Shown here one piece after another: positions 4,641 to 9,198 of a stretch of DNA of 11,479 nt (the stretch's first letter is position 1; each line of letters starts with the position of its first letter). The stretch lies in the NCBI GenBank assembly GCA_029881555.1, contig JAOUMI010000015.1, positions 1 to 11,479 of the forward strand. The letters are read 5' to 3'. Source of the DNA: Candidatus Bathyarchaeota archaeon. GTDB lineage: Archaea > Thermoproteota > Bathyarchaeia > Bathyarchaeales > Bathyarchaeaceae. A program made the translations under genes and the position numbers. The notes below the pieces were generated by a model, which was not told where the DNA came from, searched no databases, and saw only the letters and a program-made list of their open reading frames with translations.

Positions 4641-4648
4641 ATGAAAAG

Positions 4649-4655
4649 ATTTAAG
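4649..4655 (+). promoter_or_regulatory. TATA box of the initiator tRNA gene
   Basis: ATTTAAG preceded by the purine-rich GAAAAG (4643-4648, BRE-like) predicts transcription start near 4675-4678. That gives the tRNA precursor a 5' leader of about 20 bases, which includes the bases needed for the intron 1 splicing fold and for the alternative pairing with the 3' end. Confidence 0.6.
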
Positions 4656-4677: not shown

Positions 4678-4687
4678 GGTGGCGGGG
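4678..4687 (+). other. Leader segment complementary to the tRNA 3' acceptor strand
   Basis: GGTGGCGGGG can pair with CCCCGCTACC (4832-4841) over ten positions, nine Watson-Crick and one G-U. It contains GGCGGGG, nearly the mature 5' acceptor strand AGCGGGG. It could be read as an alternative first exon, but no BHB fold supports splicing from 4687, so I treat it as leader able to hold the 3' end of the unspliced precursor. Confidence 0.55.
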
Positions 4688-4700
4688 ATAGACCGTAGCG

Positions 4701-4724
4701 AGAGAGACGCGAACTCTCCTAGAA
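4701..4724 (+). other. tRNA intron 1 (24 bases, acceptor stem, after nucleotide 4)
   Basis: The BHB fold is: outer helix ACC (4692-4694) with GGT (4726-4728); central helix GTAG (4695-4698) with CTAG (4719-4722), three of four pairs plus one G-G mismatch; three-base bulges CGA (4699-4701) and AAG (4723-4725); inner helix GAGAG (4702-4706) with CTCTC (4714-4718) and a 7-base loop. Cutting after the second base of each bulge joins AGCG to GGGTG. The 5' half of the outer helix and part of the central helix are leader, not tRNA. Confidence 0.85.
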
Positions 4725-4759
4725 GGGTGGGGTAGCCAGGTGAACCCGCTGGGCTCATA

Positions 4760-4776
4760 AGCATGAGCGCTGAGAG
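4760..4776 (+). other. tRNA intron 2 (17 bases, canonical 37/38 site)
   Basis: This is a perfect BHB. The outer helix is the anticodon stem CTGGG (4749-4753) with CCCAG (4778-4782). The central helix is CTCA (4754-4757) with TGAG (4771-4774). The bulges are TAA (4758-4760) and AGA (4775-4777). A two-pair inner helix GC/GC (4761-4762 with 4769-4770) closes a six-base loop. The site is the usual one for archaeal tRNA introns; 17 bases is short for the class. Confidence 0.92.
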
Positions 4777-4786
4777 ACCCAGAGAT

Positions 4787-4813
4787 AGCAGCTTGTGCTG
4801 AGGCTGCCTCTAA
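4787..4813 (+). other. tRNA intron 3 (27 bases, variable loop)
   Basis: Central helix AGAG (4781-4784) with CTCT (4808-4811), four perfect pairs; bulges ATA (4785-4787) and AAC (4812-4814); inner helix GCAGC (4788-4792) with GCTGC (4803-4807) around a 10-base loop. The outer helix is short, C4779-C4780 with G4815-G4816. Excision leaves the variable loop AGATC that is usual for archaeal initiator tRNA. The central helix borrows two bases of the anticodon stem. Confidence 0.88.
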
Positions 4814-4847
4814 CGGTTGTTCAAATCAACCCCCCGCTACCACAATG

Positions 4848-7815: not shown

Positions 7816-9198
7816 ATGGTCACCTTCTTGGACGTGGTGAAAAGAGCCTTAACCGGAAAACCCTGTTCAGAACGAGATTATGACTTAAAGATCTTTTCAA
7901 CCAAGCTGAAGGAAAAAGTAAAGGAATACGATATAAAATACGACCCACAAAACCCTGTTCCATCCGACAACAGCCTAGCGGACGACGTGTTTGAAGCTTC
8001 CCTCGACTTTTACCGTGAAATAGGCACATACTGCACAGACACAGGAAGAATAATCAAATTTGACGAAAGCGAGATCAAAGAGGCACTAAAGACCGCACCC
8101 TCCAAACTACTTTTCGGAGAGGGAGAAGATGCCAAGACGCTGGTTCCCAGAAAACCAGAAAGCAAAATTCCGCCTTGGTGTTTCATCGGGGCTGGCGGCG
8201 CAGCCGTATCCTCTGAAGAAATCTTTTTGAAACTGGTTGAGGAGTATGCTTCAATACCACTGGCTAACGCAATAACCACTCCAGCTCTAACGTCAGTCAG
8301 CGGAATGAGAATAAGACCCGGAACACCACTAGAGATTCTAGGAGCCATAAGAAACGTGGTTCTCGCCAGAGAAGCGCTGAGAAGAGGTGGAAGACCAGGT
8401 TTACCCATCATGAACGCCCTCGCAACTGCGAGTACAGCCGTGGCATTAAACACAGCACTCTATCCCGACTATGGAATGAGAAAAACAGACGGCTACTTCG
8501 TATCCACCCTTGCAGAGTTTAAAACAAACTTTGACATCCTCAACAAAGCTTGCGCTCTAAAATCTATAGGGGCTGGAGGAGGTATAGGCGCAGATTTCGG
8601 CCCAATATTCGGCGGCTATTGTGGTGGATCTGAAGGCACCGCTGTCGCAGCAGTCGCTGGCCACTTCATGGGAATTCTCGTCTGCCAAGCAGGATGGCAC
8701 TTACCTTTCCCAATACATATTCGTTACATAGCCAACAGCACCCCGGAGCTACTATGGGTCACAAGCGTTCTTGCCCAAGCGATAAGCAGAAACACTCACC
8801 TACTGTCACTGCACCTAAACTACACGGCAGCTGGTCCCTGCACCGAAATGTGCCTGTACGAAATAGCGGCACAGCGTCTAGCTGCCGTTTCATCAGGGAT
8901 TTCCATAGAGTCCGTAGGAGTAGGAAAGGCGAGGCATGAAGACTATTTGACCCCGATGGAGCCAAGGTTTGCCGCTGAAGTCGCTCACGCGACCGTGGGA
9001 ATGAAAAGAGAAGACGCCAACGATATAGTCAAAAGCCTCCTACCAAAGTACGTTGATAAGATTGCGGATCCGCCTCTGGGCTCTAAATACCAAGAATGCT
9101 GTGACGTTAGAACAGGAAAACCGACTAAAATATGCTTAGAAGTATATAACAAAGTAAAAAAGGAACTAAAAGACTTAGGCTTGGAATTCAAGTATTAG
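7816..9198 (+). CDS. mtmB: MtmB-family (monomethylamine:corrinoid) methyltransferase lacking pyrrolysine
   Basis: MtmB passes the methyl of monomethylamine to the corrinoid protein MtmC in methylotrophic archaea, using pyrrolysine (encoded by an in-frame TAG) at residue 202. This 460-residue protein is family length and collinear with MtmB: GTYCTDTGRIIKF (70-82), GGRPGLPI (191-198), GPIFGGYCGGSEG (262-274), CQAGWHLPFPIHIRY (290-304), AAGPCTEMCLYE (338-349) and KYQECCDVRTGKPT (424-437). It is read straight through with no internal TAG. By alignment from memory to the Methanosarcina enzyme, pyrrolysine 202 corresponds to Met199 (ATG, 8410-8412), Glu229 to Phe228, Glu259 to Asp260 and Gln333 to Leu334; Tyr335 is kept as Tyr336. 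The substrate is therefore probably not handled as in MtmB. The precedent is the MttB family, where pyrrolysine-free members demethylate betaines. No corrinoid protein gene is in the window. The stop is TAG; the hydrolase starts 73 bases on. Confidence 0.88.
   Translation: MVTFLDVVKRALTGKPCSERDYDLKIFSTKLKEKVKEYDIKYDPQNPVPSDNSLADDVFEASLDFYREIGTYCTDTGRIIKFDESEIKEALKTAPSKLLFGEGEDAKTLVPRKPESKIPPWCFIGAGGAAVSSEEIFLKLVEEYASIPLANAITTPALTSVSGMRIRPGTPLEILGAIRNVVLAREALRRGGRPGLPIMNALATASTAVALNTALYPDYGMRKTDGYFVSTLAEFKTNFDILNKACALKSIGAGGGIGADFGPIFGGYCGGSEGTAVAAVAGHFMGILVCQAGWHLPFPIHIRYIANSTPELLWVTSVLAQAISRNTHLLSLHLNYTAAGPCTEMCLYEIAAQRLAAVSSGISIESVGVGKARHEDYLTPMEPRFAAEVAHATVGMKREDANDIVKSLLPKYVDKIADPPLGSKYQECCDVRTGKPTKICLEVYNKVKKELKDLGLEFKY

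Follow-up and report, generated by a model that had tools for sequence, protein, structure and literature searches.

An initiator tRNA-Met gene with three introns and an acceptor-strand copy in its leader in Bathyarchaeota

Anatomy of the initiator tRNA gene

The window, the whole 11,479-nucleotide stretch of DNA analyzed here, belongs to a Candidatus Bathyarchaeota genome (G000) whose assembly comprises 841 kb in 158 contigs and is 70.7% complete. At positions 4697-4842 it carries an initiator tRNA-Met gene whose exons are separated by three introns. The gene and the elements in front of it are arranged as follows.

4644..4655, + strand: TATA-like box AAAAGATTTAAG, a putative promoter, its start 37 nt ahead of GGCGGGG and 53 nt ahead of nucleotide 1
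4678..4687, + strand: leader decoy GGTGGCGGGG, which repeats the 5' acceptor strand and is complementary to C66-C75
4692..4696, + strand: leader ACCGU, part of the intron 1 bulge-helix-bulge; ACC pairs with G6 G7 U8, and GU-A1-G2 with intron bases
4697..4700, + strand: exon 1, nucleotides 1-4 (AGCG), from the spliced cloverleaf
4701..4724, + strand: intron 1 at 4/5, 24 nt, from its fold motif; same site in 14 family genomes
4725..4759, + strand: exon 2, from the spliced cloverleaf
4760..4776, + strand: intron 2 at 37/38, 17 nt; CTGGG/CCCAG and CTCA/TGAG with 3-nt bulges
4777..4786, + strand: exon 3, from the spliced cloverleaf
4787..4813, + strand: intron 3 at 47/48, 27 nt; central helix AGAG/CTCT, inner helix GCAGC/GCTGC; a similar intron at the same site in the relative G012
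4814..4842, + strand: exon 4, with the 3' acceptor strand at 4832-4838 and the encoded CCA at 4840-4842

When 4701-4724, 4760-4776 and 4787-4813 are taken out, the remaining 78 nt form an initiator tRNA-Met that has A1-U72 and an encoded CCA and that ARAGORN reads as an intact tRNA-Met(CAU) with a full cloverleaf. The hallmarks of archaeal initiators, a cloverleaf with a CAU anticodon, an A1-U72 pair and three G-C pairs in the anticodon stem, are all present in the spliced sequence. A sequence-only reading had proposed this gene, with a four-base first exon and a bulge-helix-bulge at each intron. All of its coordinates check, including AGCG as exon 1 with intron 1 at 4/5, and each of the three introns has two opposite-strand 3-nt bulges 4 bp apart with the cuts inside them. 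The motif of intron 1 extends to the leader (4692-4696) and has three of four central pairs, while the outer helix of intron 3 consists of two pairs. The copied acceptor strand at 4678-4687 is an addition to that reading. The exons all lie in 5'-to-3' order within 146 nt, so the gene is neither permuted nor split. The intron 3 motif uses C40 to G45, overlapping the anticodon stem and the intron 2 motif, and the motifs of introns 2 and 3 therefore cannot fold simultaneously.

The same reading had also expected a standard scan to miss the gene or misplace its 5' end, and both outcomes occurred. ARAGORN found no tRNA in the unspliced window, and Rfam at its gathering threshold gave no match across the whole window. 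With laxer filters, a 551-base stretch yielded a single 32.2-bit tRNA match at 4721-4839, which has the wrong 5' end and takes intron bases as the acceptor strand. In G001, a genome of the same genus, ARAGORN labels the gene tRNA-Ser(cga). Within the family that carries this gene, simple scans can overlook the initiator tRNA or give it a wrong name.

A glutamine synthetase gene adjoins the tRNA. It shares 88% identity with its counterpart in Candidatus Bathyarchaeota isolate bin28 (CP070759), and its relatives above 70% identity, 16 of the 31 loci found, are without exception from Bathyarchaeota. Further along the window (7816-9198, +), an open frame of 460 aa matches PF05369, the monomethylamine methyltransferase MtmB (E 8e-107). 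Classic MtmB enzymes read an amber codon as pyrrolysine; this frame has no in-frame stop and so looks like a non-pyrrolysine MtmB relative.

The genome also contains two PF01974 genes, L206 (185 aa) and L207 (193 aa). L206 retains KYGCDFAVY...DHAPY, a stretch of archaeal endonucleases; at the position of KEHSVYL in the 1a79 chain, L207 reads KETARYL, with T in place of H. We take 1a79 to be the M. jannaschii endonuclease and the replaced His to be catalytic. At the gene level, catalytic and non-catalytic subunits are encoded separately, which points to a splicing endonuclease of the (alpha beta)2 type. This type is tied to non-canonical introns and split tRNAs in excerpts of PMC4090602 and PMC3218864.

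To assess copy number, we ran two patterns, one from the D-arm to the anticodon and one from the T-arm to the CCA, over 151 genomes of the order. They matched in 38 and 123 genomes, respectively, and such a search would miss a copy broken within both patterns. The six genomes with the 4/5 intron that are at least 90% complete (G008, G010, G011, G012, G015 and G018; 92-99%) have one initiator locus each; G012 is matched by the first pattern only, because a fourth intron interrupts the second. The window's own genome gave 20 tRNA matches. Its other Met(CAU) gene, L001, has G1-C72 as first pair and is therefore of the elongator type, and no initiator sequence surrounds the other three GGGCTCATA sites. 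The search for a second initiator gene that the sequence-only reading had proposed found none in the 70.7%-complete assembly, and the locus is the sole initiator tRNA-Met gene found in this genome.

Other genomes held initiator loci of different kinds. L126 (G125) and L162 (G121) are initiator 3' fragments 0.8-0.9 kb from the intact gene, such as might be left by an element integrating at the tRNA 3' end, and L125 (G147) is a second, degenerate-looking copy about 0.6 kb from the intact one. L132 (G115) has a large intron-like D-loop insertion and no 37/38 intron. Two initiator genes per genome occur as a divergent pair at L156 (G086) and as the two similar genes L130 and L131 in G139.

The 4/5 intron and its leader-dependent motif

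Comparison with related initiator genes, also proposed beforehand, found the 4/5 intron to be common to 14 of the 27 genomes of the family (G000, G001, G002, G004, G006, G008, G010, G011, G012, G014, G015, G016, G018 and G021). Eight family members have an initiator gene without it (G005, G007, G009, G013, G017, G020, G022 and G025), the gene of G026 is cut by a contig end, and G003, G019, G023 and G024 gave no initiator gene. The mature tRNA is near-identical among the 14 carriers, and five of them (G001, G004, G008, G014 and G015) have exactly the mature sequence of the window. The intron varies in sequence and in length, from 17 to 42 nt. Chance assembly of a tRNA was ruled out by the identical mature sequence in these five carriers, their differing 4/5 introns and the covarying motif described below.

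Outside the family, initiator genes were read in 66 of the 124 genomes of the order, comprising loci returned by searches and hand-picked places across families. None of the 66 genes has a 4/5 intron, and all have a contiguous 5' end; 26 have an intron at 37/38. An exact leader-exon 1 pattern run class-wide over 256 genomes matched in 14, namely twelve carriers, a relic in G005 and G053, and its reversed control gave 4 matches in 3 of the 256. Carriers G002 and G011 are absent from the matches because their sequence differs from the exact pattern. The match in G053, outside the family, was taken as chance, with no tRNA visible nearby and a coding-like appearance by eye. A contig-end initiator, L076 (G137, family f7), has a mature sequence and 3' flank resembling those of genus g13 in family f1, which may reflect either transfer or contamination.

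In the intron 1 motif, leader ACC (-5 to -3) forms the outer helix with G6 G7 U8, and leader -2 and -1 together with A1 G2 pair with four intron bases in the central helix. One bulge reads CG^A, or CG^T in G002 and G021; the 3' bulge consists of two intron bases and ^G. The pairing is present in 92.9% of cells over 13 distinct sequences, with four pairs changed on both sides; the central helix has one mismatch in G000, G001 and G002. The covariation score was 0.229, against 0.096 for shuffled data, and none of 500 shuffles, which do not preserve relatedness among the sequences, scored as high. Two of five covariation measures were less clear-cut, being reached by 3 and 44 of the 500 shuffles. 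Versions of the motif slid along the sequence pair in only 40-52%. An RNase P cut at nucleotide 1 would take away half of this motif, so intron 1 should leave first, that is, be spliced before RNase P trimming.

The initiator gene of G012 has four introns of 23, 15, 25 and 24 nt, at 4/5, 37/38, 47/48 and 59/60. The motif at 59/60 is complete (GGTAG/CTACC, TTCA/TGAA and GAAGG/CCTTC). The motif at 37/38 overlaps that at 47/48 at C40-G43, and the latter overlaps that at 59/60 at G49-G50, so these introns must be cut in turn; sequential cutting of tRNA introns is already described in PMC8450103. In G002, a D-loop intron is present besides that at 4/5, its exact ends ambiguous by one base.

Similar 47/48 introns occur in G000 and G012, and none is present in G001 and G006, which are nearer to G000 on the RpoB tree. 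This pattern may reflect either repeated loss or gain. We also considered whether the 47/48 intron had moved in from a different tRNA of G000 or G001, and rejected this: among 50 loci, a partial tRNA set of these two genomes, its 3' end is in no other tRNA and is seen only in the flanks of four.

The leader decoy, promoter spacing and gene history

All 14 carriers have GCGGGG 8-11 nt before nucleotide 1, preceded by G in 13 and by T in one, and in six of them the stretch reads GGTGGCGGGG. The decoy looks like a copy of GTAGCGGGG in which A1 has been replaced. Its six bases are invariant in 14/14, and the flanking columns on both sides vary. Within 60 nt upstream, GCGGGG is absent from all 71 distinct non-carrier upstreams. 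A chance match was ruled out, since CGGGG likewise occurs in none of the 71 and GGGG in three.

Unconstrained folding of the 14 unspliced precursors pairs the decoy with C66-C71 in every case, with a probability of 0.99-1.00 (1.00 in the window's own genome), and exon 1 does not reach the 3' strand in the predicted folds. The predicted decoy helix of the window comprises ten pairs and extends over A73-C75. Because the mature tRNA dictates the 3' strand, this pairing lies outside what covariation can demonstrate. After splicing in silico, the predicted decoy fold still exceeds the mature fold in stability in 11 of the 14 carriers, by 0.5-5.6 kcal/mol, and falls below it in G002, G008 and G011. 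A strand exchange would thus need help.

A box like AAAAGATTTAAG, with 0-3 mismatches, is found in 14/14 carriers, 36-38 nt before GGCGGGG and 52-55 nt before nucleotide 1. In the non-carrier rows with at most one box mismatch (12/71), the box lies 34-39 nt before nucleotide 1. Thirteen further non-carrier rows have two box mismatches; the distance is 34-42 nt in ten of these and 68, 21 and 19 nt in the other three. The six non-carrier rows from the family have no close box. The matching spacings indicate that the decoy occupies the place that nucleotide 1 holds in the outside relatives. The simplest reading would be a partial duplication of the 5' end, in which the new copy holds the intron.

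We mapped the intron on an RpoB tree of 29 genomes and 970 columns, in which the family grouping is weakly supported (80/82). The distribution of carriers needs three changes. This number fits a single gain at the base of the family with the intron lost twice afterwards, once in G007 and once in the ancestor of G003, G005, G009 and genus g13, and other three-change histories are possible. The sister of the latter group is the carrier G012. The initiator gene of G005 lacks intron 1, and about 8.5 kb from it lies a relic (L216, around C85:9064-9085), ahead of a gene that by eye resembles gatB. The relic consists of a promoter-like box, GGTGGCGGGG, ACCGTAGCG, a decayed intron and then a few exon-like bases. 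The presence of this relic alongside the intact gene supports loss by replacement in the G005 lineage. A search for further relics among family non-carriers found none in 15 genomes; its fixed-spacing pattern also missed the known one in G005, so this negative carries little weight.

A model for the precursor and its alternatives

We consider it probable that these features belong to one arrangement: an initiator tRNA with three introns and a duplicated 5' end, a decoy forming a surrogate stem, splicing before trimming, and strand displacement. The 5' end of the gene would once have been partly duplicated, the upstream copy staying behind the promoter as leader decoy and the new 5' end carrying the intron after nucleotide 4. 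In the unspliced transcript, the decoy and the 3' acceptor strand, here also with the ACC of the ACCA end, would form a surrogate acceptor stem, and meanwhile leader ACCGU and A1-G2 would form the bulge-helix-bulge of intron 1. A two-subunit splicing endonuclease would remove the introns at 4/5, 37/38 and 47/48, and intron 1 would leave before RNase P trims the leader. Once spliced, AGCGGGG would displace the decoy to form the true acceptor stem. Alongside the anatomy, conservation, covariation, decoy-intron co-occurrence and promoter spacing read from the sequences, we infer splicing itself, the order of the steps, the strand exchange, the duplication, and a role of the decoy as fold holder or timer.

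That the decoy is a working part of the precursor, with a surrogate stem that would cover part of the CCA, block RNase P until intron 1 is gone and then be displaced, is a proposal we make tentatively. The predicted stability of the decoy fold after splicing is either the main difficulty for it or a sign of an assisted switch. The same stability would mean that in 11 of the 14 carriers the decoy gets in the way instead of helping, as would suit a reading in which the introns are real and spliced and the decoy, with no role in the precursor, is simply left over from the duplication or belongs to the core promoter or start site. By its distance from the box, the decoy indeed lies near the expected transcription start. 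That reading does not readily explain why precisely the six bases pairing with C66-C71 are constant while their neighbors and position 1 vary, nor why none of the 71 non-carrier upstreams has GCGGGG at that place, and we regard it as rather unlikely.

Two further readings concern the identity of the gene itself. The upstream GGCGGGG could be the true mature 5' strand, with everything from 4688 to the last base before U8 forming one 7/8 intron. This copy stands at the old 5' end, and in many precursors its pairing with the 3' strand is better than that of exon 1, but by inspection no bulge-helix-bulge fits a 7/8 cut, and it is the 4/5 motif that covaries. Moreover, archaeal initiator tRNAs have A1-U72, and the copy lacks A1 in all 14 carriers. 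We find this reading highly improbable. Nor do we give real credence to the locus being a decayed copy, with an intact initiator gene in the unassembled part of the genome doing the work. The completeness of the assembly leaves room for such a gene, and G005 provides a true relic; against this stand the intact spliced tRNA, a design common to 14 genomes, and the six carriers of 92-99% completeness in which the two patterns show this gene alone.

Our preferred reading, splicing before trimming with a displaced decoy, can be set beside several known systems. As in the multi-intron tRNAs of Thermoproteales, of which Pyrobaculum tRNA-Glu(UUC) and tRNA-Pro(UGG) have three introns each according to PMC4390854, several bulge-helix-bulge introns occupy canonical and other sites, and some must be cut in turn, as PMC8450103 describes. 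Unlike these, the gene described here is a bathyarchaeotal initiator; its acceptor-stem intron depends on the leader, it has a copied acceptor strand and, in G012, it holds four introns. The permuted initiator tRNA of Thermofilum pendens (excerpted from PMC3218864) is likewise disrupted and has a promoter unusually far from nucleotide 1 (-72 there), and its junction at 59/60 is the site of the fourth intron in G012; here, by contrast, the parts are in normal 5' to 3' order. Caldiarchaeum subterraneum also has a 5'-end copy beside an intron-disrupted tRNA gene, in the form of a 5' tRNA-Thr fragment at a split-like locus. In that case, the two are separated by a mobile element of about 1.9 kb (PMC3293823, in part), whereas here the copy is 8-11 nt from nucleotide 1 and has been retained in 14 genomes. 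Bacterial RNase P is hindered when leader bases pair with the 3' RCCA of pre-tRNA, as reported in PMC9433436. Those leader bases similarly pair with the acceptor 3' end; they extend the acceptor stem, whereas the leader here would replace its whole 5' strand.

The sequence-only reading had called an intron after nucleotide 4 unusual. That word needs some qualification, given that acceptor-stem introns of archaeal tRNAs are mentioned in PMC12397907. The leader copy, the leader dependence and the four-intron relative are unusual, and what is new beyond the known acceptor-stem introns is the strand copy, a motif that relies on the leader and implies a reversed order of processing, the relic and that relative. 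For tRNA genes with introns in Bathyarchaeia, we found no related work in the open-licence literature.

If the model is true, an essential tRNA depends on strand exchange inside the precursor from which it is made and needs to be spliced before its 5' end is trimmed. This order is reversed relative to that measured in Methanopyrus kandleri, where the 3' end is processed first, then the 5' end, modification follows and introns are removed last (PMC3695527, in excerpt). In this lineage, where an initiator can hold four introns, an acceptor-stem intron would then owe its retention to a duplicated strand, and the family would offer a tree-mapped example of tRNA gene disruption by partial 5' duplication, followed by retention and by loss with a relic. 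We found no precedent for four introns in one archaeal tRNA in the open-licence literature, and G012 would raise the count to four from the maximum of three given in the available parts of PMC4033280, PMC4390854, PMC8450103 and PMC3293823.
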